A stretch of 64,000 nucleotides of DNA from a virus, in IMG/VR virus record IMGVR_UViG_3300030099_006395, positions 39,430 through 103,429 of that record, one strand, 5' to 3'. Positions 23,272 to 63,042 of this stretch are shown one piece after another. Under the pieces are notes generated by a model. It was not told the DNA's origin and searched no databases. It saw only the letters and a program-made list of their open reading frames with translations. The position numbers were made by a program, and so were the translations under genes. How positions within the stretch are numbered: the stretch's first letter is position 1; every line of letters starts with the position of its first letter.

Positions 23272-23272
23272 A

Positions 23273-29660: not shown

Positions 29661-30331
29661 AAAATATAAATGATGTATGTGTACTAATACAGGCAAGGTT
29701 AGGTTCAACACGAGTACCAGGTAAAATGTTAAGACCATTTGCTGGAACTACACTTGTAGATATTTTGTTTGAAAAATTAAAATTATCAAAAGTTATTCCT
29801 CAAGATAATATTTATTTTTCAGCGTATGAGAAAGAATTAAAAGAAGTTGGTAACAAACATAATATTAATATATTTGATAGAAGTGAAGCTTCAGCATTTT
29901 CAGAGGGAGAACCTTTATCAGAAATATATGAGTGGTATAATAAGTTGCCATTTAAATATGTTGTGTTAATCAGTGCATGTAATCCTTTGTTAAAAATAGA
30001 GACGATAGATTCTTTTGTAGAAAGTTTTTTAAATTCAGATAAAGAAGGTGGATTTGCTGTATTTGAAAAAAAGACATACTATTGGGATAAGAATGGAAAG
30101 CCAATAACAAATTGGGATGGTGCAACTATAATGAATACTAAATTTGTAGAACCTATATATGAAGCTGCTCATTGTTTATATGCAAGTAGAATGGATATAA
30201 TAGGTAGAGGTCATTGGATGGATACTAAATCACCACCAGAACCTGAATTATTTACTATGGAAGAGTTAGAGGCATTTGATATTGATTATGAATGGCAATT
30301 TAAATTAGGTGAGGAATTATATAATGGATAA
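29657..30331 (+). CDS. CMP-nonulosonic acid synthetase-like nucleotidyltransferase
   Basis: A 224-residue GT-A-like nucleotidyltransferase: VCVLIQARLGSTRVPGKMLRPFAGTTLVDI (the QARxxSxRxPGK triphosphate loop of NeuA/PseF/SpsF) and VVLISACNPLLKIETIDSF (the ACNPL segment where family members have the nucleotide-base contact). It would activate the nine-carbon sugar with CTP for the transferase encoded just upstream. Slightly short and with a long Trp-rich insertion (YYWDKNGKPITNWDG). Four-base overlap with both neighbours. Confidence 0.8.
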   Translation: MKNINDVCVLIQARLGSTRVPGKMLRPFAGTTLVDILFEKLKLSKVIPQDNIYFSAYEKELKEVGNKHNINIFDRSEASAFSEGEPLSEIYEWYNKLPFKYVVLISACNPLLKIETIDSFVESFLNSDKEGGFAVFEKKTYYWDKNGKPITNWDGATIMNTKFVEPIYEAAHCLYASRMDIIGRGHWMDTKSPPEPELFTMEELEAFDIDYEWQFKLGEELYNG

Positions 30332-31931
30332 ATTATTTGCATTAGGAGTTGGAGAATCTGTTAGGTTTTACGAAAAACAAATACCAGGTATATTTGAAAA
30401 ATATAAAACAATAACTCTACATAATGGTTTTATAAAATTATATGATAAGTTCGGTAAGTATACAGATTACTATACTTGGGGAGATCCTTTTGGTGCATTA
30501 CATACTTTAAGATATTTAAATACTATTGATGTTATTAAAACAAAGATATTAATACCAAGCACTATGTTAGGAACATATGAAGATTTTAGAAAATATCACG
30601 GAACAAGTAGAATTTCTCAAGATAATAAATGGGATGAATATAAATCTTTAATATTTAAACTATACAATAAAGGTTTTACAATTTTTGAAATACCGACAGG
30701 TACAATGAAAGAAAAAAATTATTCTGTTGAAGAAAGATTTAATGGTAATAAAATGGTGATGGGAACTTGGAAATGGACTGGAGACGCTTCTGAAGAAAGA
30801 TGTACAACAGAGACTAAATTGACATCTTTAATATTTCCATTAGCTCACTATTTAGATTTTGATGAGGTTGATGTTTTAGGTTTTGATTTAATAGGTGGTA
30901 GGTTTTATGATAAGATAGAAGGTGTTCCATCAGACCCATGGCCAAAACATCAATTACCACTATTGGTTGAAAATATGAATGTATGGAATAGTTGGAAAGA
31001 ATATCATAATATAGATTTAATTAGTGTTGTGAATGATGATTTAACTATAAATAATCAAGCTTTGGAATACAAAGACATTTCTGAATTTAAATTAAAAACA
31101 TGGTCTGAATATTATAAAGAATGTAAAAAGGTTTATGGTGATTCTGATACTGATATAAACGATTTAACTATTCATACTAAACATTTTAAAGATGAAAAAT
31201 ATAATAATTTAATAACATCATTGAGAAATAAATTAGATGTGTTGTATCAAAATGAATCTAATTATGAATGGAAAAATGTTGCTATGGGTTTAAATGATAT
31301 ATTTATGGTTGAAGATGAATTAAAACCTTTAGTTGAAGAATATTTAATCCCATATTTAGAAAAAAATATATTTGGTTGTTATGTACATTGTGATAATATA
31401 AAAATATATAAAACACCACAAGTAAATTCACAAGAATCAAGTTCTTGGGTGTGGCATATTGATAATAATCCTGTTGAACAAATGAAAGTTATGATATACA
31501 TAAATGATGTAAATAAAGAATCAGGAGCATTTAGATATTTAAAAAAAGATAATGGTGGTGTTAAGTTATTGTCTACGCGGAGAGATTATCAAAATTGGAA
31601 AGAAACTTATCAAGAAGAAATATTTGAAAAATTCGGTCGTAAGTGGAATGGAACAAGAACACCTGATAGTATATTGAATGACTTTATTCAGAATGAAAAT
31701 TGTGAGATTGTAGATATAGAAGATAAGGCAGGAACTGCAATTATCTTTGATAACAATTGTATTCATAAAGGAACAATACCAACAAATGGTTTCAGATATG
31801 CGATGACTATTCAATTTAAACCTGTAAATAAAAAATTAGTACCTGTATTTGATAAAAAATATGTAGGTAATGGATGGAAACATGTAACATTCCATAAAGA
31901 CCCAGAAATAATAAAACCAATGGATTATTAA
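30324..31931 (+). CDS. Two-domain protein: unknown N-domain plus 2-oxoglutarate/Fe(II) oxygenase
   Basis: Start ATG 30324 (not GTG 30309). Residues 1-~290 are unlike anything I can name but have LFALGVGESVRFYEK, ILIPSTMLG and VLGFDLIGGRFYD, reminiscent of the DUF115/sialyltransferase-type Rossmann fold two genes upstream. Residues ~330-535 hold VWHIDNNP (H-x-D), CIHKGTI (second His) and GFRYAMTIQF (Arg), the metal and 2-oxoglutarate residues of PhyH-like dioxygenases. A hydroxylated or oxidised sugar is a possible product. An uncommon fusion. Confidence 0.7.
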   Translation: MDKLFALGVGESVRFYEKQIPGIFEKYKTITLHNGFIKLYDKFGKYTDYYTWGDPFGALHTLRYLNTIDVIKTKILIPSTMLGTYEDFRKYHGTSRISQDNKWDEYKSLIFKLYNKGFTIFEIPTGTMKEKNYSVEERFNGNKMVMGTWKWTGDASEERCTTETKLTSLIFPLAHYLDFDEVDVLGFDLIGGRFYDKIEGVPSDPWPKHQLPLLVENMNVWNSWKEYHNIDLISVVNDDLTINNQALEYKDISEFKLKTWSEYYKECKKVYGDSDTDINDLTIHTKHFKDEKYNNLITSLRNKLDVLYQNESNYEWKNVAMGLNDIFMVEDELKPLVEEYLIPYLEKNIFGCYVHCDNIKIYKTPQVNSQESSSWVWHIDNNPVEQMKVMIYINDVNKESGAFRYLKKDNGGVKLLSTRRDYQNWKETYQEEIFEKFGRKWNGTRTPDSILNDFIQNENCEIVDIEDKAGTAIIFDNNCIHKGTIPTNGFRYAMTIQFKPVNKKLVPVFDKKYVGNGWKHVTFHKDPEIIKPMDY

Positions 31932-31932
31932 T

Positions 31933-32637
31933 ATGAGAAAAATATTTTTAGATTGTGGAGCATACAATGGTTGTTCTGTAGAATTGTTTACTAAAATGTA
32001 TGATGATTATGAGGAATATGAGGTATTCTCATTCGAAGCAAATAGGGGATTGAGTAATCAGATATGGTCTACAGCAAAAAAGTATAAATTTAAAAACTTT
32101 ACATTAATTAATGAAGCTGTGTGGATTTCTAGTGGAATAAAATATTTTGTTGGATCACGATTAGTTGATTTAAAAAATGATACTGATGATGCTACTTTAG
32201 TTAAAAGTTACGAAGAAATAACTTTAATGTACGAACAGGAGCAAACAGACACAGGTCAACCTAGAGGTAATTTACAGACTTTAGATTTTTCTAAATTTAT
32301 ACTTGACAATTTTGATAAAAATGATTATATAATTTTAAAAATGGACATTGAAGGAGCAGAATATAAAGTTATTGATAAAATGTTTAATGATGATTCTCTA
32401 AAGTATATTTCTAAATTTTATGGAGAATTACATGGTACTAAAAAAGGATTTAATCAAAATGATACCAATAAATTTTTTAAACAAATCTACTCTAATAATT
32501 TAAGGATGTTTAATTGGGATAGTATGCAAGGAGAAATAAGTGATTTAGAAATAGTACCAAATAATACAGAAAATTCATTTGAAATTAGCGGTTCATGTAA
32601 TAGATTATGTCATTCATATAAAAAAATAGAGGATTAA
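31933..32637 (+). CDS. FkbM-family methyltransferase, second copy
   Basis: A 234-residue protein: KIFLDCGAYNGCSVELFT (SAM loop), EVFSFEANRGLSNQI, DYIILKMDIEGAEYKVIDKM (FkbM D-I-E-G-A-E motif) and a late KFYGELHGTK. Probably methylates a sugar hydroxyl made by this cluster. It begins one base after the dioxygenase stop and is followed after two bases by a glycosyltransferase. Confidence 0.85.
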   Translation: MRKIFLDCGAYNGCSVELFTKMYDDYEEYEVFSFEANRGLSNQIWSTAKKYKFKNFTLINEAVWISSGIKYFVGSRLVDLKNDTDDATLVKSYEEITLMYEQEQTDTGQPRGNLQTLDFSKFILDNFDKNDYIILKMDIEGAEYKVIDKMFNDDSLKYISKFYGELHGTKKGFNQNDTNKFFKQIYSNNLRMFNWDSMQGEISDLEIVPNNTENSFEISGSCNRLCHSYKKIED

Positions 32638-32639
32638 CA

Positions 32640-33836
32640 ATGGAAAAAATAACATTTTGTATACCAAGTAAAAACAATAAAAGATATCTTGAAGCTTGTA
32701 TACCTTCAATAAGAAAAAACTCGTATCGTGGAGACCATGATATAATTGTGTTTGTCGACGCTGACAACGATGGAACCGTTGAATGGTTAGAATCAGTTAA
32801 GGATAAATATAATTTAAAATACATAGTCAATGATACAGGTAAATTATATGGTATTGGAAAGGCATATGATAAATGTGTAGAAGAATCCACAACAGATATT
32901 TTTATGATATTCCATGCAGATATGATGTTAGGTAGAGATGCAGATTTAGAAGCATTTAAATATCTTGATAGAAAGAAAGTTGTATGTGCTACGAGAATAG
33001 AACCACCACTGCATCCAGAAGGACCTGAAAAGATAGTAAAAGACTTTGGTATGTGGCCAGAAAAAGATATTGAGGATGGTTGGAAAGATAAAGACTTTGA
33101 TGTATTTGTTGACATAATGAGATCAAAAAATGAAAATAAAATAACAAAAGGTTGTTTTGCACCATGGATGATGTACAAGGATGAATTTTTAGAGATGGGT
33201 GGTCATGACCCAAGATTTGCTTCAGCTCGTGAAGATTCAGATGTGTTTAACAGATTAGTTTTAAGTGGTTTTGATTTGATACAATCTTGGCAAAGTTTTG
33301 TGTATCATTTAACAGCTAGAGCTGGACAATTTCAACATGGAAAATTGACACAAGACCATAGTCAAAAGTCTGAAGAGTGGAGAAAGCTTATGAGTAATTC
33401 AACGAGAGAGTTTTTCAGAAAATGGGGAAGTACGGTAAATCACGACCAATATATGATGCCGATAATATCACCAAAATATGATATTGGGTTTGTAGTTAAA
33501 AATTGTAATGAACATTTGTTGGGTATTTTAGAACCTTGGTGTTCTACAATCTATGTCGATTGTGAAATTGAAAAATATATAGAGAGTGAACAACCTAATA
33601 CAACAGATAATTTAACTAAAAAAATATTATCTATACATTCCGAAAAACAAAATGACATAGTTGTCAGTTTTGATGGATTAAAATTAACAAATGAAGAATT
33701 TCAATTTATACAACAGTTACCACTTGTTATTAAAGATAGTGGTGAGATCGGTAATATGGAATATAGTATATTTGAAATACAAATTAACAAATTAAAAACT
33801 TATGAGGAGGATCTAATAAAATGCCATATGATGTAG
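32640..33836 (+). CDS. Family 2 glycosyltransferase with C-terminal extension
   Basis: A 398-residue protein; the first ~260 residues are GT2: ITFCIPSKNNKRYLEACIPSIRKN, HDIIVFVDADNDGTVEWL, IFMIFHADMML (DxD-like H-A-D-M) and GGHDPRFASAREDSDVFNRLVLSG (acceptor E-D-x-D). The remaining ~140 residues (IVVSFDGLKLTNEEFQFIQQ) are unknown. Ends 16 bases inside the next gene. Likely adds one sugar to the glycan built by this cluster. Confidence 0.83.
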   Translation: MEKITFCIPSKNNKRYLEACIPSIRKNSYRGDHDIIVFVDADNDGTVEWLESVKDKYNLKYIVNDTGKLYGIGKAYDKCVEESTTDIFMIFHADMMLGRDADLEAFKYLDRKKVVCATRIEPPLHPEGPEKIVKDFGMWPEKDIEDGWKDKDFDVFVDIMRSKNENKITKGCFAPWMMYKDEFLEMGGHDPRFASAREDSDVFNRLVLSGFDLIQSWQSFVYHLTARAGQFQHGKLTQDHSQKSEEWRKLMSNSTREFFRKWGSTVNHDQYMMPIISPKYDIGFVVKNCNEHLLGILEPWCSTIYVDCEIEKYIESEQPNTTDNLTKKILSIHSEKQNDIVVSFDGLKLTNEEFQFIQQLPLVIKDSGEIGNMEYSIFEIQINKLKTYEEDLIKCHMM

Positions 33837-34765
33837 AACTAGAAGATTATCATGAAGACGTTTTGTTAAGTAGTGGACCTAAAAATTGTTTGGTAACAGG
33901 TGGTGCTGGATTTATAGGTAGTAATATAGTCAATAAACTTATAAAAGATGGTCATTATGTAAGAGTGGTTGATGATTTATCTTCTGGAAGTAAATACAAT
34001 TTTAAGTATCAGACAGAGTTTTATAGAGCAGACATTTCAGAAGAACCTTTTTTAGACATGTTTCAAGATATTGATATTGTTTTTCACTTAGCAGCATTTC
34101 CAAGAGTAGAACCATCTATTCAAGACCCAATAAAAGCTAATAGAATTAATGTCAATGGAACACTAAATGTATTAAACGCGTGTGTAAAATATGGTGTTAA
34201 AAGATTCGTATTTACATCATCTTCAGCTATATATGGAGAAGCTGATACACCAACTACAGAAGAACACTCTAAAAATCCAATGAGTCCATATGCATTGAAT
34301 AAATTGATAGGAGAACAATATTGTAAATTGTATTCAGAAATATATAATTTACAAACTGTGTGCTTAAGATATTCTAATGTGTATGGTGAAGGACAACCAA
34401 TTGAAGGTGCATATTGCAATGTGATGGGTATATTTGAACAACAAAAATTGATGGGTAAACCTATGACAATTGTTGGTGATGGTGAACAAAGAAGAGATTT
34501 TATTCATGTCAATGATGTTGTCGAAGCTAATTTAATAGCAGCTTTTACTGATAAAATAAGTTTTTTGGGTGAAGTATATAACATTGGTTATGGAAAAAGT
34601 TATTCAGTAAACCAAATAGCTGAGTGGATAGGTGGTGACACCAAAAACATAGAACCAAGAATAGAACCAAGAGAAACTTTGTTGAATAGTGATAAATTTA
34701 AAAAAACATTCGGATGGGAAACTACAATAGACTTAAAAAAATGGTTGGAGGAAAAAAATGTCTAA
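33821..34765 (+). CDS. Extended SDR, UDP-hexose 4-epimerase (GalE/WbpP-like)
   Basis: A 314-residue protein with an extra acidic ~25-residue lead before CLVTGGAGFIGSNIV (NAD motif). VVDDLSSG, VFHLAAFPRVEPSIQDP, TSSSAIYGEA and MSPYALNKLIGEQYC (Tyr and Lys of the active site) follow, then VYGEGQP and RRDFIHVNDVVEANL. All residues expected of a 4-epimerase acting on UDP-GlcNAc/GalNAc are present. Last large gene of the sugar cluster. Confidence 0.9.
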   Translation: MPYDVELEDYHEDVLLSSGPKNCLVTGGAGFIGSNIVNKLIKDGHYVRVVDDLSSGSKYNFKYQTEFYRADISEEPFLDMFQDIDIVFHLAAFPRVEPSIQDPIKANRINVNGTLNVLNACVKYGVKRFVFTSSSAIYGEADTPTTEEHSKNPMSPYALNKLIGEQYCKLYSEIYNLQTVCLRYSNVYGEGQPIEGAYCNVMGIFEQQKLMGKPMTIVGDGEQRRDFIHVNDVVEANLIAAFTDKISFLGEVYNIGYGKSYSVNQIAEWIGGDTKNIEPRIEPRETLLNSDKFKKTFGWETTIDLKKWLEEKNV

Positions 34766-48134: not shown

Positions 48135-48662
48135 ATGCATAAGTGTAGTATGTGTTCTACTGATATACCTAAAGCTCGTGTTGAGTTAGGTTATACTATA
48201 TGTACCAAGTGTTCTACCGAAGAGAAAGTTGCTTGTCATACTATATACCCACACAAGACTGGTGGTTATATACAGGTAGTTAGTAGAGAGCAATCTGAAA
48301 ACCTCAATCGTTTAGATAGACGGGGTTATTCTGGTATGAAGAAGGCTAAGAATTATAAATCTATTATTAAGAAGAAGAGTAAAGACTTGGATAAAACCGC
48401 CAAGGTAGTTCGTCACCGGTCCTCTTCTCTTAATAGTATTAAACATACACCTTATGATACTGCTCTTGAAATGGTAAATAAGTATTATGATGAATGGGGT
48501 TATCAGCCTACGCTTAAGTATTTACGAAAATTGAATAGTTCAGGTGAGATACCTCTTATGACACGAGTTAAGATACAAGATATTATTACTGATAGATATT
48601 TAGAACCCACACCAAGGGCATTAAAAAGAAAGTTTAACGGTTTGGATTCAATGTACACATAA
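48135..48662 (+). CDS. Zinc-ribbon protein with basic tail, 175 aa
   Basis: ATG 48135 (GGAG upstream) rather than 48024. Begins HKCSMCSTDIPKARVELGYTICTKCS, a treble-clef-like zinc site. The next 120 residues are very basic (MKKAKNYKSIIKKKSKDLDKTAKVVRHRSSS), then a helical WGYQPTLKYLRKLNSSGEIP. Likely binds nucleic acid. Its 3' end overlaps the convergent minus-strand gene by 29 bases. Confidence 0.65.
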   Translation: MHKCSMCSTDIPKARVELGYTICTKCSTEEKVACHTIYPHKTGGYIQVVSREQSENLNRLDRRGYSGMKKAKNYKSIIKKKSKDLDKTAKVVRHRSSSLNSIKHTPYDTALEMVNKYYDEWGYQPTLKYLRKLNSSGEIPLMTRVKIQDIITDRYLEPTPRALKRKFNGLDSMYT

Positions 48663-50667
48663 GTGCGTGGTGATCCATAAAATCAAACTCATATGTTTGA
48701 CAATTACGACTGTTGGAAAAATTACTTATAATATAATCTAATGTACCTTCTAAAAACATGAATGAGTGTGTTATATCCGGACCATAAAAATAATTTGTTC
48801 CATCCCAATTATTTGCATATGGACTTTGTGATAAATTCCAATCTTGTGGTACATTATGTACAGTAAAACCTTTATCTCCATAAGTTGTTTGAGAATGCCA
48901 ATATTGAGCTGAATCAATATAATCATATTGTTCTGGTTGGACTATACTATCATAATCAACAGGTGATAATGTTTCTATCAAATCTCCAATACTTTCATAC
49001 TCCATAATCATATCTTCTATTTTTCCTGCTACGGAGTTCTTTACCTGTTCTTCCATCCATTCAAATCCCATTATCCATCCAGAACTATTTAAATCTAAAT
49101 CAGAAGCATCTACATCATGTAATGTAGATGTACCATCTGAATTCATTCTTACAGTCATAACGATATCACCAGACCAACTCCACACTAAATGATCATTAAA
49201 CAATCCATTACATCCTCCCGTTCCCGGAACAAGTCCAATTGGAAATTCTGGACAAGCATGCCAAGCAGTCATATCCATACATATTTTTTGAGATGTATCA
49301 TCAAGTCCTAGAATTAAATTTAAATCATAATAATTTTCCGATGAATTTGTTTGACCGAATATAACTTCTTGACCAGCTGGATTAGTTATACTAAACTCTA
49401 CATCACTTAAATTAACATCAATATCCCAAGAGTCAATATGATAAACCTGGTCTTCACCTATTGGACAAACACCATCAGTTGTATAATCCAAAACATTTGG
49501 TATAGGATTAAATTCATTCAATAATGTTTTAGCAAATGTTTCAGTCCATTCTTGATTTGTTAATTCATTCCAATTAAATATACTATTCCAATTCCATCTA
49601 TATGGATCTGTATTAAAATCTCCAGCGATTAAAATATTTTCATTTGGATTATATAAATCATCAAAGATTTGTTGGAAGTGTGCCTTTCTACATTTATCTT
49701 TATGTTGAGTAGGTGCATTTAATGGATGTGCAGCTATAACTTTTATTCTAGACCCATTGTTAAGAGTTACATAATTATAATTGACATTAATTGGCCAACT
49801 ATCTAAACCATTACATTGTTCGGGTAGGTCTGTAGTAATACTATCACTATCTAAAGAACCTACACTATTCTTAACTGCTATACATGTATATAGTGGGTCA
49901 CTGCATGAGTAAGTATAATTGTTTGGTAACACTCTACGAATTTGTTCATCACTATATTGTGCTAAACTACAAGATGAATCCATAGATAAATCTGCCGCCT
50001 CTTGACAAATAGGATTTTCTATGCATTCTTGATTACTTATCAATTCTGTTATAGTAACTATATCAGGTTGGTAATTACTTATAAAATCTCGTAATTCATC
50101 TTCATCACTTTTTCTACATAATCCCTGCTGTGTACATTCATCCAAACATTCTGGAAAGTCACCAGATGAATCAAATGCATTAGTATAATTAATATTGAAT
50201 AAATGACCAGCGTTGATTTGTAGTACTTTTAATTCTTCAGGAACATTACCACCACCTTCAGTACCGCCAGCTAAAAGTAAATCAATAAAATATTGTATAT
50301 CTATTACATTAACATCTCTGTCATTATTTATATCCATAGCCCAAATAATACATGACCAGTAATTATAAAAAGGTGGCATTTCATCGTTAGAGTATGGTGC
50401 TGGATTTAAAATAAAATTTCTGACTTCTATAATATCTAAAATATCTATATTTTGATCATAATAGGTTGGATTTCCTTTTACGAAACCTGCTTCAGTACAT
50501 ACAGAATCGCAAGATCCTCCAACATTATGGAAGCTTCCATCCCATATACCATTAATTGGATCACAGTTACTAAATCTTGTATTAGTTCTTATAGGTGTAT
50601 CGGTTTTGGTTTCTATACAAACTCCTCGATGTGACATTGTATAACCTTTTGGACATTTACCTCTCAT
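48634..50667 (-). CDS. Endonuclease/exonuclease/phosphatase (EEP) protein with dockerin-like repeats
   Basis: A 677-residue protein. Residues 1-20 have the CPKGYTMSHRGVCIE motif shared with its two upstream neighbours. Residues ~65-135 are two degenerate dockerin-type repeats (DQNIDILDIIEVRNFIL; MDINNDRDVNVIDIQYFI). Then an EEP domain follows: VLQINAGHL, DIVTITELI (catalytic Glu), VIAAHPLNAP, ILIAGDFNTDP (G-D-F-N) and DFMDHHALM (D-H), split by a ~200-residue Cys/Trp-rich insertion. Enzymes of this fold cut DNA, RNA or phospho-lipids/sugars. No export signal; likely on the virion or released at lysis. Confidence 0.75.
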   Translation of the reverse strand: MRGKCPKGYTMSHRGVCIETKTDTPIRTNTRFSNCDPINGIWDGSFHNVGGSCDSVCTEAGFVKGNPTYYDQNIDILDIIEVRNFILNPAPYSNDEMPPFYNYWSCIIWAMDINNDRDVNVIDIQYFIDLLLAGGTEGGGNVPEELKVLQINAGHLFNINYTNAFDSSGDFPECLDECTQQGLCRKSDEDELRDFISNYQPDIVTITELISNQECIENPICQEAADLSMDSSCSLAQYSDEQIRRVLPNNYTYSCSDPLYTCIAVKNSVGSLDSDSITTDLPEQCNGLDSWPINVNYNYVTLNNGSRIKVIAAHPLNAPTQHKDKCRKAHFQQIFDDLYNPNENILIAGDFNTDPYRWNWNSIFNWNELTNQEWTETFAKTLLNEFNPIPNVLDYTTDGVCPIGEDQVYHIDSWDIDVNLSDVEFSITNPAGQEVIFGQTNSSENYYDLNLILGLDDTSQKICMDMTAWHACPEFPIGLVPGTGGCNGLFNDHLVWSWSGDIVMTVRMNSDGTSTLHDVDASDLDLNSSGWIMGFEWMEEQVKNSVAGKIEDMIMEYESIGDLIETLSPVDYDSIVQPEQYDYIDSAQYWHSQTTYGDKGFTVHNVPQDWNLSQSPYANNWDGTNYFYGPDITHSFMFLEGTLDYIISNFSNSRNCQTYEFDFMDHHALMCTLNPNR

Positions 50668-51324
50668 TTAAAAAGGACCCTTTGGTTGACTTTCACCAGA
50701 TTGTTTAGGTTGCCAGTTACCACACAAATAAGGTGCGTCTACATCACCTGTCCATTCCCATTCATCCCCAGCATATTGTCCTCCTGGATTACCTGATGGT
50801 GTATACCATCCAGCACATGTGGTTGAAGCGAAATATGGAAATATACATCGGTCACCCATTACAAAACTATATGGATGGTTCTCACACATCTCATATGGAT
50901 ATTCAACAGATAAGACACCATTGGAATCACAATATGCAGTGTTTTGTCCAGAACCTTGTACAAAAAAATTAAATCCATTCATAAATTTATATCTTATATC
51001 ATCTGTGAGTTGTTGCGTGGTATCATATTGAGTTGATTCACAACCTACTGCCCCTCCTAATGTCCAAAGATAAAATAAACCTACTCGAAGATTATGACCA
51101 TCACAAAAAGCTTCAAAATACTGTACATCTTCACACCCTTGATCACAACAAGGTAACACTGCTCTATTATTTGTACGGGTAAAAGTACCATACTGATTTA
51201 ATATATTTCCTTCAACACATGTACCATTACTTCTATCCATCACCATACCTTTTGGGCATTCTTTTCTTTTATTTGGTATGAGATCACCTGCTATATTTAC
51301 TTTATAATTTTTTGTTTCTTTCAT
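50668..51324 (-). CDS. Cys-rich CPKG-motif protein, 218 aa
   Basis: Ends flush with the start of the EEP gene. After a basic lead comes ECPKGMVMDRSNGTCVEGN, the shared CPKG module, then a domain rich in Cys, Tyr, Trp and Gly (PCCDQGCEDVQYFEAFCDG, TTCAGWYTPSGNPGGQY). The many Cys suggest disulfides outside the cell. No homologous family known to me. Probably works with the genes on both sides as one surface or virion complex. Confidence 0.6.
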   Translation of the reverse strand: MKETKNYKVNIAGDLIPNKRKECPKGMVMDRSNGTCVEGNILNQYGTFTRTNNRAVLPCCDQGCEDVQYFEAFCDGHNLRVGLFYLWTLGGAVGCESTQYDTTQQLTDDIRYKFMNGFNFFVQGSGQNTAYCDSNGVLSVEYPYEMCENHPYSFVMGDRCIFPYFASTTCAGWYTPSGNPGGQYAGDEWEWTGDVDAPYLCGNWQPKQSGESQPKGPF

Positions 51325-51325
51325 T

Positions 51326-52429
51326 TTACATTACTCCAAATAAAGAAGGACAATTTAAATCCATATGTTGCCAATTGTTACCACATCCCTGTTGCCAATA
51401 ATAATTCATACCTTCTGATGTCTGTAATATAAATCCTTGTCCTGGATTAAATCTAAAACTACCAACCCAAGTCCAACCTTGAAAAGTAATCTCTTGAGTT
51501 ACAGGATCTGTAACTGTAATATTATTATAATTAGCAGCTGAACCTACGCCTATCAACTCTCTAGTTATTGTACCATCTGCAATAGTATTACTTACGACAC
51601 TGGTATCACTAGGCTCAATATCTCTATATTCGGGTTTATCAGGAAAAGGATAAGCTCTGTAATTTGGACCTGCGTGAGTAACCATTTTATAGTCACGACT
51701 AATCATACCATATGGTGCATTAACTCTTTGATTTATAGGTGAACTAAATTCAACCCAATAAGCCATTTGAGGATATATATGAGTTAAACTTCCAACCCAT
51801 ACTCCATTAACTTTTTGAGTAGCAACACCTTGATTTTGAGTTGGATGTACACCTGTTATCTTTTTTATCTGTCCTCCAGGAGCTAACATACTTTCAAACT
51901 CTTCTACAGACCAAACACCTTCTTCAAGTGGGAATCCTACACCATCAGAGGGATCACTATTACTTACATGTGAACCAAAGTCTTCCTGTGGGTAAGCCCT
52001 AAATGGGAATGATATTAAAAAAGAACCTGCTGGGTAATTATATGTAATACCATCTACTGGTGCTGGTGATATTCCACCTGGTAAGGAAGTATCACCACCT
52101 ATACCAGGTGAAAGAATTGAATTATTTGATTGAATACATACTCCTTTTTGTTTATTCAAATGCATACCTTTTGGGCACTTTTCTCTATGATCTATAGGAA
52201 CACTATAATAATATTGTTCAGGATAATCTTCGAAACTATTATTAACTTTTATAGTTCTACCAACCCCATCTTCTAACTTAACTTTTGGTTGAGGAACTAT
52301 TGGTTCATTTGGATGAATAGGAGTAACTCCGTTATCTGGAAGAATGATTCCACCATCTTGAAATCTAGCTCTCCGTCTTGATAACCTACCACCATTCCTT
52401 CTAGTTCTTCTTCTAGTTCTTCTAGCCAT
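51326..52429 (-). CDS. CPKG-motif protein with Arg-rich N-terminus, 367 aa
   Basis: First gene of the minus operon, with class B promoter and AAAGGAAAC ribosome site. Residues 1-25 are almost pure Arg (RRTRRRTRRNGGRLSRRRAR), KCPKGMHLNKQKGVCIQSN at ~85-103 is the CPKG module, and the rest is beta-rich, Pro/Gly-rich (ISFPFRAYP, VWVGSLTHIYPQMAYWVEFSS, TWVGSFRFNPGQGFIL) with repeated W-V-G-S-L/F strands. Looks like a structural or adhesive protein. An Arg-rich start also marks the 2178-residue protein. Confidence 0.6.
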   Translation of the reverse strand: MARRTRRRTRRNGGRLSRRRARFQDGGIILPDNGVTPIHPNEPIVPQPKVKLEDGVGRTIKVNNSFEDYPEQYYYSVPIDHREKCPKGMHLNKQKGVCIQSNNSILSPGIGGDTSLPGGISPAPVDGITYNYPAGSFLISFPFRAYPQEDFGSHVSNSDPSDGVGFPLEEGVWSVEEFESMLAPGGQIKKITGVHPTQNQGVATQKVNGVWVGSLTHIYPQMAYWVEFSSPINQRVNAPYGMISRDYKMVTHAGPNYRAYPFPDKPEYRDIEPSDTSVVSNTIADGTITRELIGVGSAANYNNITVTDPVTQEITFQGWTWVGSFRFNPGQGFILQTSEGMNYYWQQGCGNNWQHMDLNCPSLFGVM

Positions 52430-52462
52430 TAGTTTCCTTTATTTAAATTAAATATATTTGTT

Positions 52463-52476
52463 CATATATAAATATA
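52463..52476 (-). promoter_or_regulatory. Class B promoter element on the minus strand
   Basis: Reads TATATTTATATATG on the minus strand, 33 bases before the start codon of the 51326-52429 gene. Orientation relative to the gene is the same as for plus-strand copies. Confidence 0.6.
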
Positions 52477-52537: not shown

Positions 52538-52611
<74 letters not shown>

Positions 52612-52614
52612 CAT

Positions 52615-52957
52615 GGGGTCGACATGGAATCGATTGCTAGATTTTTGACATAAAGTGCAAGTAGCGTGATTCACTCACGAATCAAACATACGATAATCGG
52701 CAACGAATATCAATACATGGCAGTAGCGTAGTCTACTTCCCATCACTCCTTGATTTCTGATAGAGGATAAAGTGGTGTCATATCAGAAGAACCTCCTTTA
52801 TGAATGGGTTGGGAGAATACTAATTTACATTCCATCTTTGAGCAAACAGATGTAAAACAGTAATCTGACTTTGTTAATAAGAAAGAAATTAACTAAACTT
52901 GTAAATGACTTTATGTAGGAAACTGGTAAGACGGGGGTTCGAATCCCCCCGACTCCA
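52615..52957 (+). ncRNA. ssrA: Transfer-messenger RNA (tmRNA)
   Basis: 5' GGGGTCG (52615-52621) pairs with 3' CGACTCC (52950-52956), giving a G3-U70 pair, the alanine identity element. The T-arm is GGGGG-TTCGAAT-CCCCC (52933-52949), discriminator A. The tag reading frame starts with GGC at 52699 and reads G-N-E-Y-Q-Y-M-A-V-A, stop TAG at 52729-52731. With the charged Ala the peptide would be AGNEYQYMAVA. Gly as first encoded residue resembles Bacteroidota tags as I remember; the usual -LAA end is -AVA. It rescues stalled ribosomes and tags products for proteolysis. Rare in phages. Confidence 0.93.
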
Positions 52958-52968
52958 CAAATTAAACG

Positions 52969-53003: not shown

Positions 53004-53924
53004 ATGAATAATATTGGTTATGCATGTATTAACATGAATCTATCTAAATGTAAACCGAAGATTACTACTAATCGTAGTATGATAAAAAGAACATTTACAG
53101 AAAAAGGTTTACCATACGCATCTGAACTAGCGTTACAAAATTGTAAAGACTTACTTACAATACTCAAGTGGAACAAAGCTAATGGTATTAATTTCTTTCG
53201 TATGTCTTCAGACCTTATACCATGGGCTTCTGAATACAAGTTGGATGATTTACCAGACCATTGGGATATAGTAGCTACATTGGGTGAATGTGGTAAGTTT
53301 GCTGAAGAGAATAATATTCGTATTACATCTCATCCTGGTCCTTTCAATGTTCTTACCTCACCACATGAACATGTAGTTGAGAATTGTATCAAAGACTTGT
53401 CTATACATGGTGAAGTGTTTGACATGATGGGTTTATCTCGTACACCATACAACAAGATTAATATACATATTGGTGGTGCTTATGGTGACAAGGTATCAGC
53501 TATGGAACGATTCTGTAAAAACTTTCATCGTCTACCAGATTCAGTTAAGTCTCGTCTTACGGTTGAGAATGATGACAAGGCTTCTATGTATTCTGTCGTT
53601 GATTTGTATGAGGGTGTATACAAGGTTATAGGTATACCGATTGTATTTGATTACCATCACCATAGATTCTGTACAGGTGGACTGACAGAAGAAGATGCAC
53701 TTGAAGTTGCTATATCTACTTGGCCTACTGACATTGTACCTGTTGTACACTATTCAGAGTCTCGTAGTAAAGAACAACTAGATGAGTCTATTAGACCACA
53801 AGCACATTCAGATTATGTACTTGACTATATTGACACCTATGGTAATAGAGTTGATATTATGATAGAAGCAAAAGCCAAAGAGTTGGCTGTTATGAAATAC
53901 AAAGAGTTACATGGATTATGTTAA
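53004..53924 (+). CDS. uvsE: UV-damage endonuclease UvdE/UvsE
   Basis: A 306-residue TIM-barrel enzyme: IGYACINMNL, FFRMSSDLIPWAS, ITSHPGPFNVL, INIHIGGAYGDKVSAMERF, LTVENDDKASMYS, IPIVFDYHHHRFC and VVHYSESRS. His and Glu metal ligands are in place. It nicks DNA 5' of UV photoproducts, protecting the phage genome in sunlit water. Start ATG 53004 (a longer frame from 52905 would run into the tmRNA). Its promoter abuts the ATG, implying leaderless translation. The Mom-like gene overlaps its end by 14 bases. Confidence 0.92.
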   Translation: MNNIGYACINMNLSKCKPKITTNRSMIKRTFTEKGLPYASELALQNCKDLLTILKWNKANGINFFRMSSDLIPWASEYKLDDLPDHWDIVATLGECGKFAEENNIRITSHPGPFNVLTSPHEHVVENCIKDLSIHGEVFDMMGLSRTPYNKINIHIGGAYGDKVSAMERFCKNFHRLPDSVKSRLTVENDDKASMYSVVDLYEGVYKVIGIPIVFDYHHHRFCTGGLTEEDALEVAISTWPTDIVPVVHYSESRSKEQLDESIRPQAHSDYVLDYIDTYGNRVDIMIEAKAKELAVMKYKELHGLC

Positions 53925-54633
53925 TACTAATAAATTAATAGTAAGAGAAGTTACAAAGTCTATAGCTAAAAAGATGGTAGTTAAATATCATTACTCTCAC
54001 CTATGGACAAAGTGTTCTGTTGCATTAGGATTATTTTATAACACAGGTAAACAACATTCTTTCTTTGATGAAGAAGAAGAAAAGCTTATCGGTGTTATAA
54101 TATATGGTGACCCGATTGGTAGACATAGTGGTGGTTCTATATCAGAGTTATTAGATAGAACTGATGTATATGAATTAACAAGGTTATATATCCACGATGG
54201 TTATGGTAGTAATATTGAGAGTTGGTTTATCTCTCAATCTTTTAAATGGTTGAAAGAGAATACAAACATCAAGGCTTTGATATCATACGCAGACCCAAAA
54301 GAAGGACATGCTGGTACAATCTACCAAGCCACTAATTGGATATATCAAGGTAATAGTATTAGACCAAATGATACATATAGTTTTAAATTGAAACCAGACG
54401 ATGAGTGGATACATGGAAGAACATTGGCTAATACATATAAGACAAATGATATAGAGAAGTTAAAGAAAAAAATTGGACATACCTTTTGGTATAGAGTAGA
54501 ACCGTTGAAACATCGGTATGTATATCTACTAAAGAATAAAAGGAAGTTAATGAAACACTTAAAGCATCCTATTAAGCCATATCCGAAGGCGGATGATGTA
54601 GATGATTTAAAAGTAACAAAGGTGGTGGTATGA
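53911..54633 (+). CDS. Mom-like (GNAT-fold) DNA-modification family protein, copy 3
   Basis: A 240-residue close relative of the 12767 protein: KYHYSHLWTKCSVALGLFY, GVIIYGDPIGRHSGG, YELTRLYIHDGYG, LISYADPKEGHAGTIYQATNWIYQGNSIR, IGHTFWYRVEPLKHRYVYLL and KPYPK near the end. Shared residues run along nearly the whole length. Predicted to modify DNA bases in the manner of Mu Mom. It lies between uvsE and a fourth, more distant copy, in what may be a DNA protection unit. Confidence 0.6.
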   Translation: MDYVNTNKLIVREVTKSIAKKMVVKYHYSHLWTKCSVALGLFYNTGKQHSFFDEEEEKLIGVIIYGDPIGRHSGGSISELLDRTDVYELTRLYIHDGYGSNIESWFISQSFKWLKENTNIKALISYADPKEGHAGTIYQATNWIYQGNSIRPNDTYSFKLKPDDEWIHGRTLANTYKTNDIEKLKKKIGHTFWYRVEPLKHRYVYLLKNKRKLMKHLKHPIKPYPKADDVDDLKVTKVVV

Positions 54634-56129: not shown

Positions 56130-56448
56130 ATTTAAAAAAGGAAATCGTTGGAAAAATAGTAAAGGTGAATTAAGATATAAAACCTGGAGGAAAAATGTAT
56201 TCGAACTCAACAAAGCAAAAAAAGGATTACGAAAATATTATGTCTGTGAGAAATGCAATAAGAAACGAAAGACCACAAGGGTCTTACATGCTCACCATAT
56301 TAAGAGTTGGGATAGATTCCCAAAAGATAGATACGATAGAAATAACGGAGTAGTGTTATGTATCAAATGTCATAACGCATTTCATCGTAAATATAAATTT
56401 GAAGCTCTTGAAAATCCTAAACTGTTATATGAATATTTAAAAAATTAA
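56125..56448 (+). CDS. HNH endonuclease with no standard start codon
   Basis: The frame from 56113 to 56448 encodes RKYYVCEKCNKKRK, VLHAHHIKSWDRFPKDRYDRNNGVVLCIKCHNAFHRKY, a textbook HNH with zinc Cys pairs and catalytic His. It has no in-frame ATG, GTG or TTG. The best guess is an ATT at 56125 (translated KFKKGNRWKNSKGELRY after the start). An alternative ATG at 56195 with perfect GGAGG is in another frame and yields only an unrelated 52-residue peptide. Real non-AUG start, frameshift, or sequencing error are all possible. Ends 4 bases inside the convergent gene. Confidence 0.65.
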   Translation: MKFKKGNRWKNSKGELRYKTWRKNVFELNKAKKGLRKYYVCEKCNKKRKTTRVLHAHHIKSWDRFPKDRYDRNNGVVLCIKCHNAFHRKYKFEALENPKLLYEYLKN

Positions 56449-59400
56449 GAACACTGGTGTTCATTAGGTAGATAATAATATCTGGTAGGATGTCCAGTAC
56501 AATCGTTTCCACTATCAGCACATCCATTTTCAAATGTATTCCATGTTGAAAAACCATATCCAAAGACACCTCGTGATTCGTATTCTTGGTTAGTTGCATA
56601 TTCTAATTGACAAAGTGATTCAGAATTACAATTTTCTAAGCTTACATTACTACATAAAGAATCATTTTCTTGACTAATACCAACACACGAAGTTGATGTT
56701 GATTCTGGTAAAAACTTTATAACATTACCAGGAAGAAAACTTTGTGTTTGTCTAAAATCTTCATCAGATTGTATTCTTACATTTGGATGATATATAGTAA
56801 AGAACATTCTTGATAGGCCTATATTTGCTTCAACACTTGTTTGATTATTACCAACCACACCAAGTATTATAGAGTTATTGGGTCCATCTACGACAGCAGA
56901 TTGACTAGCCCAATTATCAAAACCATCACCAAATTCAATTTCAACATTTTCTGGTATACAAGTTGGTGCATTTAAAACAAAATTAAAATAATCAAAACAA
57001 TAATCAGAAGCACAATTTCTTGTGTTGGTTGTTCTCGAAGTGTTATTTCTTCTTCCAACCTTTCTACCCATACTATCCACTAATTGCATAACTGTATAAG
57101 TAGAATTATTAAAATGTGGCTTTAATAGATTTATTAGTCTATTTGTTTGTTCAGGAGTTAATTCAGTTTGTGAACTTCTTCCACTAGCGTTGTTACGTGA
57201 TAATATCAAATTAACTAATGAAACAATATCAAGAATATCAACTACCCCATCAGAGTTTATATCAGCTGCCAAAAATTGTTGGCCAGTTAGGGGTGTATCA
57301 TTCATAATATGGTTAATAAGTATAACTATATCTTGAATATTTACTGTACCATCGAAGTTTACATCACCTGCAGGTGAAATTGCACCATATGGAAAATCAT
57401 CATCGGTTAATAAAACATCACCAAACTCATCTTCTGCTCTCGTAATCTGCCAGTAAAATTCACTTCTAACACCAGATCTACAATGTGGATTATTACCTGT
57501 TGTACCACAACAATCAGGACCATAAGTTCCAACACAATTCATATCTACTTCACCACCACATTCTGGATTACCAGGTAATGGATTTTCACAATATTTAAAA
57601 TGTACATTACCATGCCAATACCAACCATTACTTTCTACAGTTTTTGTTAAAAAGTCATCCATTGTTTGTGCACCATTAACTGAACAATCAACAACCTCGT
57701 TACCTAAAATACAAAGTGATGAATCAAATCTTAAACAATATTTAATCAAATCACTACCGAAAGTAGATTCAATTTGTTCTACTACATTAGGGTCACAATA
57801 AGAACCAAATCTATCATAAGCAACATCAATAACTTGTTTAGAATATTTATAAAGATGGTGATTCATTTCTTCCCAACAATAATTAAGGCCAACATAGTCA
57901 TCAACATCATTTATAGCTGGATAAAAAGGATCTCCAAATAACCAATCAATAGTATCATTTCTTTCTATATCATATTTAGAATATGGTGTCCAAGCCGGTG
58001 AAGATGGATTTGTACAACCAGCACATTGACAACCACAATGTAATATACCATTTCCTCTGTCTGCACCAAATTGATCACCACCAAAAGGACCACAAAAGGC
58101 TGATTGATTTGAAATCTCAAATTGAGTTCCGTACCAATCTCCACTTTCACAACCAAATGAACCCCAAGTTAATGTAACATCAAAACCTAAAATATCTTTT
58201 GATATTAGTGTTTCATCAGGACATAAACCACATTGGTCTTTTTCACTATTGGGTTCTTGAACTACACCATTTGGACATCCCGCTTCAGCTGAAATTCCTT
58301 CAGGTGGACATGAACATGTACCACAATCATCAACAAAAGCATCACCAAAACAAACACCAGAACAATCTTGACTTTGATTAGGTACATCTACCTCCTCACC
58401 CTCACCAACACATTGAAGACAATCATCTATATTGTTTGTAGGACAATTTATTTCATCATTAGCATCAATACCTTGACAAGAAGATTCTAAAATATAATTA
58501 TCTCCAGGTGTACTATCAGGATTACCATCTTCTAAAATAAATGTACAGTGTTGTGTTATTCCAGCTTGACAAAAGAAGTCACCATCACCATCAACAGCAA
58601 AATCGAAAAAGCTTTTGGGCCCACCACATACACCAGAGCAATCTGGAGGACCACAATTTACACCACCTTGTATACAATACGGACTTTCATATGGACAACA
58701 TCCAAAGTCATCAGCTCCAGGTCCATCACAAACTCCACACTCATCTGTAGATGAAGGTTCTTCTCCTTGATATGGACAAATACTAGCACAATCAAGAGCA
58801 TAATTCATACCACATACATTACCAATATAATTTTGTTCAGGTATATTACAATTACAAGATAACGAAGTATCTCCAGAACAATTACAAGATGTTATACCTG
58901 TACGAGTATTTAAATATTGAGCTGTACCAATACCTATTGGGAAAGCAGATAAAGTATCATTCCATATGTTCATAGTACCACCAACTTCATTTGTGAAACA
59001 TGAGTTTACACCATCAGCTGTATTATAATATGGAAGTGGTACATCACTACCATCAAGTTGAACAAATATACCAACACCTGGTTCATCACAATTACCACAA
59101 TCATCATCTTGATAACAAGGAGGATAATCTACACCTGCTATAGTTTCACCACCAACACTTTCAGAACAACAATGATTTATATCAAATTCTTGACCCATCC
59201 ATGATTTCTGTACACCATCACCTGACCATGATGGATAAAAATCAGGTACATAATTATAAGCAGTACACCATCTACTACGATTAGTACTAGCGTGTGTAGT
59301 ATTCGTTGGACAAGCTATAAAATCATCTGTTTGGTTAGAACAAGGTCTTAATGGATAACCATTTACATCAGGACCACCTACTAATAATCCCACACAAGCT

Positions 59401-62400
59401 TCTCCATCTATACCGAAATTTGGGTCTTCTTGATACAGATATCCAGCTACATTGTTTTCACTTGTAAAGTCGTCTGTTAGATAATACTCTTCAGAATCTA
59501 AAGGATACTCTTGCAAGTTTAAGATTTCTGGATTGCAACCAAAAGCCATTATACCAGAACCAGGGTCTACTGAACAATCTCCGTCTGAATCAGAACAGAA
59601 ACTTATTTTACCTGTTTCTACATTAGTTATACAAACACTATTATCGTTAGTACAACGTTTTAATCCTAGGTTTGTTTCTATTAATTGATCACTATCTGCA
59701 TTTGCACACTCAGCACTAAAGTTACATGCAGTAACATCATTACAATACTTAACTTCTTCATATACACAAACTTCTTCAGATTCACCTGCAGTCTTACACC
59801 CATTAGGTGCAAAACAATATGGATGAAGAGCTCTACCCATTATAAAGTCATCAGTAGTCGATCCATGAGGATAAATGTGAGTTAATGATTCTGCACATTG
59901 TTCCAAATCACCAAATATAATATCACCTGTTTCATATCCCCCTAACGCATCTAATAACTTACAAAACTCTATTGAAGTCATTGGATAAGATGAGTTTGAT
60001 TGTTCATTAAATGAAGCTAAACCACCAGCTGGTTCATTATTTTTATTTTCTGAATAGCCTACAGGAGGATCTCCAGCCGGTAACCAGTTAAATGCATTTG
60101 CATCATTACAACCGCTTTCATAATAACAACAACTTGTATCACCATAATTACCAATCTCGTCTGGCTCTCCTGCTCCTGTTCCTGAACAATCCATTGCTAT
60201 ATCTGTACCAGGTACTTTAATTACATCACCTGTATAATTACCCGCTGTTGGATCTGCACATCCCATACAACCTTTTTGAAATGCAGCTTTTCTTTGCATA
60301 GCCAGTGCGTATCCGTTTGGACATGCATCTATATCAGGATTATCAGGATTTAACATATTGTTCCATTGTGTTCCAGTACAATTTTGATCTATGTAAGATT
60401 GTAATAATAAATAAAAGTATACAACTCTTTGTGGAACTATTCCTTGAACAAGTTGAAATTGATAATCCATATCAATATTTGGTCCCAAATATGTATCATC
60501 AGATACAAAGTTACATCTAGGAGACCCAGTTGGAATGTTAGCAGTATACCATGGGTCATTTAAACTTTCTATATATTCAACTGAACAATTAAAATCTTCA
60601 GAATTGTATCCATAACTACCCTGATAATTACACACATTAGCCTCCGTCATACCATCAGGTAATAACCCACCACAACCAATGTCAGGATTTGATTTTCTAT
60701 TCTCCGCAAAGAACTGATTATTAGTATATGCTGTATATTGATCACAACCACATGCACAGTGACATTCATATCCACTTGATGACCCACCCATCCAAGCAGA
60801 ATCAGCTAGGTTACCAATACATGTAGGTATACTAATCCAATAGTTTAACCAATCAAAATCATTATAATTATTTGGATTATATCCAAAAATATTTCTATTA
60901 ATATGTTCCATTACACATTGTCTATTATCAACATCTTGGTCATTTAATAGATTATTCCAAACATCGGCTTCTATACTGAATCCTCTATTTGTACAAAATT
61001 CAGAACACCTACCAGCACAATTACTGTCATTTGGTTGAGACCATATTATACCAGAATAAACTAAACCTGGTTCCCAATTTAATGTATCAAGTACTTGTTG
61101 TGGTTGTAACCACCAACCTTGTCCGTAATTTACTAAATCTTCAGTACTTAAATTTTCTTCATCTTCATTTCCATGATCAAATTCTTTTAAGTCATAACAC
61201 TCACAAGGAAGTGGTGACCTTTCAGTTACACATTCCATGATATAATCTCGACAACAATCTCCCATGAAATTCTCATCATTATCTACATTACAATCTACAC
61301 CAGGATTTGTTCCAAATTTTGTTTGATATGAACCATACCCTGTATCATAACCAGTATCAGGTATTGGACCAAAAAATTCAATATGACTTTCTAATACACA
61401 ATCACTTGGACAATTACCCAAACATTCATTATATGCATCTATAGCAAAATCTTCATCAACACCATTGTGTGCATAGAATAAATTTATATCACAACCACAA
61501 CTAGCACAACCATAATCACAATAACATATATTTGGACCACCACCAAATACTCCATCTCCACGAGACTTGAACTCAAAACCTCCTGGGTCCCAACCTCTAC
61601 CTGAACCATCTGGATGAGCAATAAAATATGGATTTGGGCTACCATCAGCTAATGTTGGTTCTATATATCTTTTTCTATTACATTTACCTTTACAAGTTCC
61701 ACCTTGTCCAAATGTAAATCCACAATGTTTATTGGGGTCAGTACTCGGACCTAATCCTTGAAATCCACCATAAGTTTCCCAACCCAAAAATCTTTCTCTT
61801 TCATATATGTAAGGTTGTTCTACACAATCTGTTGCATTATTGGGTGTAAATGTTAAATCAGGATACATCTCATGAAATCCAGCATCACCAAAAGCTGCTT
61901 CCTTAGCTAGTCTATCAGGACCTGCACAACCTATCTGTTCATGTGCTCGTCTTGTATTCAATATATCACCACAATCCCATCCCCACTCAGCACATGCCAT
62001 ATGAGGGAAACCCGCTCCTAAATTAGTTAAGTCAACCTGTTCATAATAACATCCATCACAACTAAAGAAATATCCAGGCTCAAAAAATAAATCAGTTTGT
62101 CGAGGTGCATCACCAGCCCAATAAAACATGTGTTTTAACCAAAAACCAGTATCACCACCAGCAGAATCAGGAGAAAAAGGACCTGCATAAAAATATTCAC
62201 CATTGGGTAACCAGTCATCATCAAGTCCACCGTCATCACATGAAGGCCAATCTGTATTACCACAAGCTTGAGCTTCATTCGATGGTATACAATGTTCTTG
62301 TCTACAACCATAATAATTAGATAACCATCTACCATCATCGGCGTCATTGTCACCAGCCCATAATACATAAGACCTACCTAATCTCTTTCCATAATTTTCT

Positions 62401-62981
62401 GTATTAAAAGGACCACCCGTTCCACCATAAGCAGCTGCACATCCACAACAAGCAAAACCTGCATCAAAATATTGATTACCAGATTGGTAATCATCATAAC
62501 TATGTCTAACTCTACAATTAAAATTATCTGGACAATAAGCCTGTTCAGGACATCTAACACAATCTCCAGGAGCCACCCATATATCTACTCCGTTACATGT
62601 AAACTGACATTCTCCACCCTCTTGTCCTTCCCAATCATTTCTTGAGCCATTCTCTGATTGAATAGTTCCTATATTTTTATAAACACCAGATCTACTAAAT
62701 ATACCTATTGTTTGTTGTATTTCATTATATGGAGTAGGATGCATTATTTGTTTGGATGGTATATCTTTTTTGGTAGGAAGATTTATTGAATCTTGTGCTC
62801 TATCATTATTTGACTTTGGTGTAAAATCATGTGTATAATTTCTAATAGAATTACCACCATAACCCATTGAATTTGGTTTTTGTATTTTACTAGCATTTGT
62901 AGGATTAACTATCTGTTTTCCTTGCCTTCTAGCTAGAGCTCTTCTAACCATTCTTCTATTTCTTGAATTTCTATTTGACAT
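56445..62981 (-). CDS. Giant Cys-rich protein with dockerin-like repeats, 2178 aa
   Basis: Largest gene in the window. A very basic start (NRNSRNRRMVRRALARRQGKQ) is followed by a long tandem array of Cys-rich units. I count about 36 Cys in the first ~610 residues. Units include GCTNPSSPAW, DVTACNF, DECGVCDGPG, QDCSGVCFGD and PDCSGVCGG, known to me from surface proteins of marine bacteria. Residues ~1870-1930 hold two dockerin-type calcium repeats (GDVNFDGTVNIQDIV; ADINSDGVVDILDIV). The final ~250 residues form another domain (WNTFENGCADSGNDC). No signal peptide. Candidate adhesin or virion fibre. Class B promoter upstream. Confidence 0.75.
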   Translation of the reverse strand: MSNRNSRNRRMVRRALARRQGKQIVNPTNASKIQKPNSMGYGGNSIRNYTHDFTPKSNNDRAQDSINLPTKKDIPSKQIMHPTPYNEIQQTIGIFSRSGVYKNIGTIQSENGSRNDWEGQEGGECQFTCNGVDIWVAPGDCVRCPEQAYCPDNFNCRVRHSYDDYQSGNQYFDAGFACCGCAAAYGGTGGPFNTENYGKRLGRSYVLWAGDNDADDGRWLSNYYGCRQEHCIPSNEAQACGNTDWPSCDDGGLDDDWLPNGEYFYAGPFSPDSAGGDTGFWLKHMFYWAGDAPRQTDLFFEPGYFFSCDGCYYEQVDLTNLGAGFPHMACAEWGWDCGDILNTRRAHEQIGCAGPDRLAKEAAFGDAGFHEMYPDLTFTPNNATDCVEQPYIYERERFLGWETYGGFQGLGPSTDPNKHCGFTFGQGGTCKGKCNRKRYIEPTLADGSPNPYFIAHPDGSGRGWDPGGFEFKSRGDGVFGGGPNICYCDYGCASCGCDINLFYAHNGVDEDFAIDAYNECLGNCPSDCVLESHIEFFGPIPDTGYDTGYGSYQTKFGTNPGVDCNVDNDENFMGDCCRDYIMECVTERSPLPCECYDLKEFDHGNEDEENLSTEDLVNYGQGWWLQPQQVLDTLNWEPGLVYSGIIWSQPNDSNCAGRCSEFCTNRGFSIEADVWNNLLNDQDVDNRQCVMEHINRNIFGYNPNNYNDFDWLNYWISIPTCIGNLADSAWMGGSSSGYECHCACGCDQYTAYTNNQFFAENRKSNPDIGCGGLLPDGMTEANVCNYQGSYGYNSEDFNCSVEYIESLNDPWYTANIPTGSPRCNFVSDDTYLGPNIDMDYQFQLVQGIVPQRVVYFYLLLQSYIDQNCTGTQWNNMLNPDNPDIDACPNGYALAMQRKAAFQKGCMGCADPTAGNYTGDVIKVPGTDIAMDCSGTGAGEPDEIGNYGDTSCCYYESGCNDANAFNWLPAGDPPVGYSENKNNEPAGGLASFNEQSNSSYPMTSIEFCKLLDALGGYETGDIIFGDLEQCAESLTHIYPHGSTTDDFIMGRALHPYCFAPNGCKTAGESEEVCVYEEVKYCNDVTACNFSAECANADSDQLIETNLGLKRCTNDNSVCITNVETGKISFCSDSDGDCSVDPGSGIMAFGCNPEILNLQEYPLDSEEYYLTDDFTSENNVAGYLYQEDPNFGIDGEACVGLLVGGPDVNGYPLRPCSNQTDDFIACPTNTTHASTNRSRWCTAYNYVPDFYPSWSGDGVQKSWMGQEFDINHCCSESVGGETIAGVDYPPCYQDDDCGNCDEPGVGIFVQLDGSDVPLPYYNTADGVNSCFTNEVGGTMNIWNDTLSAFPIGIGTAQYLNTRTGITSCNCSGDTSLSCNCNIPEQNYIGNVCGMNYALDCASICPYQGEEPSSTDECGVCDGPGADDFGCCPYESPYCIQGGVNCGPPDCSGVCGGPKSFFDFAVDGDGDFFCQAGITQHCTFILEDGNPDSTPGDNYILESSCQGIDANDEINCPTNNIDDCLQCVGEGEEVDVPNQSQDCSGVCFGDAFVDDCGTCSCPPEGISAEAGCPNGVVQEPNSEKDQCGLCPDETLISKDILGFDVTLTWGSFGCESGDWYGTQFEISNQSAFCGPFGGDQFGADRGNGILHCGCQCAGCTNPSSPAWTPYSKYDIERNDTIDWLFGDPFYPAINDVDDYVGLNYCWEEMNHHLYKYSKQVIDVAYDRFGSYCDPNVVEQIESTFGSDLIKYCLRFDSSLCILGNEVVDCSVNGAQTMDDFLTKTVESNGWYWHGNVHFKYCENPLPGNPECGGEVDMNCVGTYGPDCCGTTGNNPHCRSGVRSEFYWQITRAEDEFGDVLLTDDDFPYGAISPAGDVNFDGTVNIQDIVILINHIMNDTPLTGQQFLAADINSDGVVDILDIVSLVNLILSRNNASGRSSQTELTPEQTNRLINLLKPHFNNSTYTVMQLVDSMGRKVGRRNNTSRTTNTRNCASDYCFDYFNFVLNAPTCIPENVEIEFGDGFDNWASQSAVVDGPNNSIILGVVGNNQTSVEANIGLSRMFFTIYHPNVRIQSDEDFRQTQSFLPGNVIKFLPESTSTSCVGISQENDSLCSNVSLENCNSESLCQLEYATNQEYESRGVFGYGFSTWNTFENGCADSGNDCTGHPTRYYYLPNEHQCS

Positions 62982-63028
62982 AAATTGAATCCTTTAAATA
63001 TTTTAAAAACCATTATGGTAGTATTTTT

Positions 63029-63042
63029 CATATATAAATATT
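63029..63042 (-). promoter_or_regulatory. Class B promoter element on the minus strand
   Basis: Reads AATATTTATATATG on the minus strand, about 48 bases before the start of the giant gene, whose ribosome site is AAAGGATTCAATTT. Confidence 0.55.

Follow-up and report, generated by a model that had tools for sequence, protein, structure and literature searches.

Our leading reading, which we hold tentatively, is that a 2178-residue Cys-rich protein encoded by a T4-superfamily phage of Neomarinimicrobiota is expressed late, associates with the virion as an adhesin and matures outside the cell. Its gene lies in the window, by which we mean the whole 64-kb stretch of DNA analysed (positions 39430-103429 of a virus record of 113,475 bp). 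The record is a contig (G000) of a T4-superfamily myovirus: PHROG matches identify the major capsid protein, head-tail adaptor, sheath and tape measure, a Pfam match identifies a GH108 lysozyme, and a gp19 match under the curated cut-off (E 3e-5) points to the tail tube. By major capsid protein the nearest isolates are Flavobacterium phage immuto (50% identity) and Rhodothermus phage RM378 (34%), yet the phage collection containing both holds no match to the 2178-residue protein. Some ten genes for Cys-rich or Arg-tailed proteins form a set, to which this one belongs.

The 6.5-kb gene occupies exactly the boundaries given in the preliminary description, 56445-62981 on the minus strand, and starts with ATG; its codon usage is uniform and phage-like throughout. 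The protein contains 136 Cys residues (6.2%). A density of about one Cys in seventeen had been claimed for the first 600 residues, and our count of 36 (one in 16.7) agrees; the density persists to about residue 1860, and the densest stretch is residues 1401-1600 rather than the first 600. The start, described earlier as Arg-rich, is a basic tail free of Cys (residues 1-110, 62652-62981, minus strand, pI 11.0) that begins MSNRNSRNRRMVRRALARR. It is followed by an acidic Cys-rich body (residues 111-1860, 57402-62651, minus strand, pI 4.1) with 126 Cys. Single-sequence AlphaFold2 models of residues 101-620 and 1640-2178 reached a pLDDT of only 30-33 and were unusable.

The reported absence of a signal peptide is borne out. 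The stop-to-stop frame comprises 2182 codons, just four more than the open reading frame, so a signal peptide cannot come from an upstream start. With no room for such a peptide and no C-terminal match to TIGR04183, the protein does not belong to the T9SS-secreted class. The phage does encode export signals, since a trypsin-dockerin protein (4771-6108, plus strand) has a lipoprotein-type signal, read from its sequence, unlike the 2178-residue protein. The disulfide puzzle posed by such a protein in a virion assembled in the cytoplasm is real.

The dockerin-like repeats noted near the C-terminus resolve into one type I dockerin (residues 1871-1926, 57204-57371, minus strand), after which another 250 residues follow. 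The match to Dockerin_1 (PF00404) is full-length (E 5.4e-11, 43 bits against a curated cut-off of 22.9), and two intact DxNxDG calcium loops, DVNFDGTVNIQD and DINSDGVVDILD, can be read from the sequence; on both counts the protein carries a genuine type I dockerin. Among the best hits, identity to Neomarinimicrobiota dockerins is mostly 40-58%. It departs from the usual type I dockerin protein in being encoded by a phage, in its lack of an export signal and in the residues beyond the domain.

The view that the body consists of many short units holds only in a weak sense: a self-BLAST search finds no internal repeat (E<=10), and what stands is a scatter of single copies of two motifs known as repeats from cellular surface-type proteins. 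We built a DCxGVCxG profile from cellular proteins and assessed significance against 500 shuffles, and two clear copies emerge. A DCSGVCGG motif of the Neomarinimicrobiota repeat type (residues 1447-1454, 58620-58643, minus strand) scores 15.4 and the DCSGVCFGDAFVDDCGTC repeat (residues 1539-1556, 58314-58367, minus strand) scores 36.1, the best shuffle reaching 13.1 in each case; the latter also matches L186 (E 2.5e-6) and L161 (E 7e-6) by BLASTP. A degenerate GCxDPxAxNY-type motif (residues 908-917, 60231-60260, minus strand) beats 95% of shuffles and not the best ones; sites of the GCTDPxACNY type are only suggestive. Together, the dockerin and the DCSGVC-type repeats, which resemble Neomarinimicrobiota extracellular proteins, support the earlier description of a surface-type protein.

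The ATG is preceded, at 46 bp, by an exact copy of the 15-mer ATATTTATATATGAA (63027-63041, minus strand). The contig holds five exact copies, which precede the head-tail adaptor, the tail tube, the GH108 lysozyme, a minus-strand operon of Cys-rich proteins (52461-52475, minus strand, 32 bp upstream of 52429) and the 2178-residue gene. With one mismatch, the motif occurs upstream of the sheath and of two small genes; one of these copies precedes a 64-residue gene of unassigned role, which counts against the leading reading. Six first-order Markov simulations of the genome gave 0-1 matches each at up to one mismatch, and in related phages the motif stands before the same structural genes. Based on this position, ATATTTATATATGAA looks like a late promoter. 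By its exact 15-mer the 2178-residue gene groups with the virion structural genes, and the protein is apparently produced late in infection. The T4-type late promoter TATAAATA was considered and rejected, as it is absent in the sense direction before the structural genes.

The host is probably a member of the Neomarinimicrobiota, a widespread marine phylum that is largely uncultured. The phage tRNA-Arg(TCT) gene (52538-52612, plus strand) is identical to a chromosomal tRNA of Neomarinimicrobiota genome G095 (100% over 77 bp). The match has the same two neighbours in G095 and in G043, one of them an enoyl-CoA-hydratase-like gene, which indicates a chromosomal context. Other full-length matches among 120 Neomarinimicrobiota genomes reach about 92% or less, and the best in 198 Bacteroidota genomes reach at most 90%. 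Each of seven Neomarinimicrobiota genomes gives at least 28 matches to the dockerin region, and the tRNA-matched G095 gives seven weaker ones; among the matches listed, none falls in three Flavobacteriales-type genomes and six fall in one Myxococcota genome. Cohesin matches above the cut-off, with modest scores, were found in all eight Neomarinimicrobiota genomes tested and in none of three Flavobacteriales or Bacteroidota-type controls. T9SS sorting tails number 20-66 in the five Neomarinimicrobiota genomes checked. In the related phage G011, a protein with a dockerin also bears a T9SS sorting tail (L096:8452-9090, minus strand).

Six further Cys-rich proteins (5.5-8.3% Cys) are encoded between the neck, sheath and baseplate genes, and most members of the set have at least one of two features, a CPxGYxMxxGxC-type motif and an Arg-rich terminal tail. 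We called a terminus Arg-rich when at least six Arg fall within the N-terminal 30 or the C-terminal 22 residues; seven proteins in the genome qualify, six of them Cys-rich (Fisher p 6e-6); the companions' tails contain up to 13 Arg per 22 residues. The seventh is the product of the first gene of the minus-strand operon (51326-52429), which combines an Arg-rich N-terminus and a CPKG..GVC motif with only 1.1% Cys. The second gene (50668-51324, minus strand) encodes a Cys-rich protein with a CPKG..GTC motif and a C-terminal QPKGPF. The third (48634-50667, minus strand) encodes a CPKGYTM..GVC motif, a dockerin-like pair and an endonuclease/exonuclease/phosphatase domain (PF03372, E 1.2e-5) with GDFN and DHH motifs; its product has no signal peptide, and its dockerin is similar to that of the 2178-residue protein (E 5e-5). 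The latter has no RGGRIRRRRRR tag at its C-terminus and no CPxGY motif, both features of the small companions, and we tie it to the set on account of its Cys content, Arg-rich N-terminus, promoter and this dockerin similarity. The CPxGYxMxxGxC motif was rejected as diagnostic of the set, because it is common in unrelated phage proteins; one of these, a protein of more than 1200 residues (L155:1929-5612, minus strand), combines a CPPGYTM..GMC motif with a metzincin-type HEIGHNLGASH motif.

Two members, L003:10843-12009 and L004:5366-6034, lie about 14 kb apart and have unrelated bodies, yet share a near-identical 3' end of about 54 nt that codes for PPKGEFSRGGRIRRRRRR. This suggests that the tag has moved between different payloads. 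A scan of IMG/VR with an Arg-tag DNA pattern returned, beyond this phage and G001, the L128 record only. These closest relatives (G001 with 80% capsid identity, and L128) carry Cys-rich genes of their own, different ones, at the same places; L017 (57%) has Cys-bearing genes in another style, and no Cys-rich genes were seen at the corresponding places in L007, L008, L010, L011, L014, L016, L020 and L023. A thioredoxin-like protein (L004:13866-14669) was set aside as a dedicated folding helper, since it has homologues in relatives in which no Cys-rich set was seen. Hint (self-processing) domains occur near the neck genes, within the virion block, in three related phages (L003:10843-12009, L089:10030-11262 and L101:15024-15887), that of L101 being a Hedgehog-type Hint module (PF01079, E 5e-28).

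Based on the late-type promoter and on the kinship in composition and tails with the Cys-rich genes of the head and tail block, we infer that the 2178-residue protein is associated with the virion. It would be made late, in the cytoplasm and without an export signal. The Arg-rich N-terminal tail would hold it on the particle, a role that Arg-rich C- or N-termini may also play in the smaller Cys-rich products of genes in the head and tail block. Once lysis has released the protein into seawater, which is oxidising and rich in calcium, the Cys-rich body would form its disulfides and calcium would fill both dockerin loops; a delay of folding until then is plausible. The surface of the next host could then be engaged by the dockerin and the DCSGVC-type repeats, possibly by dockerin-cohesin docking, in a phylum whose genomes encode several cohesins along with dozens of proteins that bear a dockerin. 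If this is true, the particles are decorated with disulfide-rich proteins resembling those of the host surface, inert in the cell and maturing in seawater.

A broader version is rather unlikely as a whole: that a clade of T4-superfamily phages of Neomarinimicrobiota arms its particles with an interchangeable Cys-rich set, of which the 2178-residue protein is the largest, with a terminal Arg tag on most members as docking signal, attachment through host cohesin-dockerin pairs and disulfides formed after lysis. Were it to hold, T4-like virions could in general be loaded with cargo by means of a short Arg-rich tag, and a cohesin-dockerin receptor system would be suggested for phages of Neomarinimicrobiota.

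The same genes can be read as encoding proteins that act late and outside the virion. The 2178-residue protein would then be released at lysis, in the company of the other Cys-rich proteins, the nuclease-like one among them, as an extracellular protein that might coat debris, bind host surface material or help progeny reach new cells. A distance of 70 kb and a change of strand separate the giant gene from the structural block, and the minus-strand operon is likewise apart from that block and includes the endonuclease/exonuclease/phosphatase domain protein; a late-type promoter is also compatible with release at lysis. On the other hand, six similar Cys-rich genes are interspersed with those for neck, sheath and baseplate, and the Arg tails look like a shared docking tag. 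We consider release at lysis unlikely, while giving it serious weight.

The virion-associated adhesin that we favour shares several traits with T4-type long tail fibres and Hoc, being a large late protein proposed for host contact, accessory and varying among close relatives. It differs from them in the lack of a sequence match, its saturation with Cys and its Arg-tailed, Cys-rich companions. Another reading takes the protein for a conventional tail fibre of atypical sequence, elongated and with the Cys-rich body in place of the usual shaft. The gene is the largest of the contig and has a late-type promoter, all other open reading frames encode at most 1200 residues, and relatives do have long, low-Cys genes of fibre size. 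However, PHROG, Pfam and NCBIfam contain no tail-fibre family or attachment domain that matches the protein, and the fibre-sized genes of G011 sit upstream of the capsid block, a region perhaps missing from this contig. The contig may be incomplete, in which case conventional tail fibres could be encoded in the part not recovered. We regard the fibre reading as distinctly unlikely.

A cytoplasmic role late in infection, with zinc coordinated by the Cys residues and DNA or RNA bound by the Arg tails, is quite improbable. It would account for the absent export signal and for the strongly Arg-rich tails of the companions, and a zinc-ribbon-like Cys-rich protein is encoded elsewhere in the phage (L004:14670-15098). 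Against it, no zinc-binding family matches the protein, the body is strongly acidic, and both the motifs of extracellular proteins and the calcium-binding dockerin point elsewhere.

Full-length homologues were found neither among annotated phages nor in IMG/VR and the species genomes, the last two searched with a pattern method whose reach is limited to close relatives. In related phage records and 13 cellular genomes, the matches listed lie only at or around the dockerin, and the companions beginning at 10843, 48634 and 51326 have no confirmed relatives in IMG/VR. A concern of the preliminary description, that the gene might prove to be a chimera of assembly, found no support, as codon usage is uniform and the 15-mer promoter is that of virion genes. 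Its codon usage correlates at 0.988 with the other phage genes and at 0.903 with the host sample, and GC3 stays at 0.11-0.16 in all six segments. With phage-like codon usage and even GC3, chimerism is unlikely and the gene looks long resident in the phage. That it is a recently captured host surface protein, or an assembly chimera, with no phage function is very improbable: its repeats and dockerin do resemble Neomarinimicrobiota proteins, but codon usage and promoter are of the phage type, and the signal peptide and T9SS tail that a T9SS-exported host protein requires are both missing.

Among the closest parallels are giant Cys-rich proteins of Neomarinimicrobiota (for example L161, with 2360 residues and 5.3% Cys, and L180, L208 and L239), which carry DCxGVCGG and GCTDPxACNY repeats. 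They resemble the phage protein in size, Cys content and DCSGVC-type repeats, and several have dockerins. In contrast to them, the phage protein has neither signal peptide nor T9SS tail, begins with an Arg-rich N-terminus, shows phage codon usage and a late-type promoter, and holds few, degenerate repeat copies. The literature searched has no account of this protein or of virion proteins that carry a dockerin; a dockerin-like gene 40 has been reported, without functional data, for phage VvAW1 (PMC3558961).

Several other features of the phage were recorded. It encodes three Mom-family DNA modification proteins (1211-1870, 12767-13522 and 53911-54633), and a tmRNA with the tag GNEYQYMAVA (52615-52958) adjoins the tRNA-Arg gene. 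Glycosyltransferase genes lie in the region 15395-34765 along with sugar genes, one of them for a NeuB homologue (22411-23271), a combination that would suit a nonulosonic-acid-type glycan.
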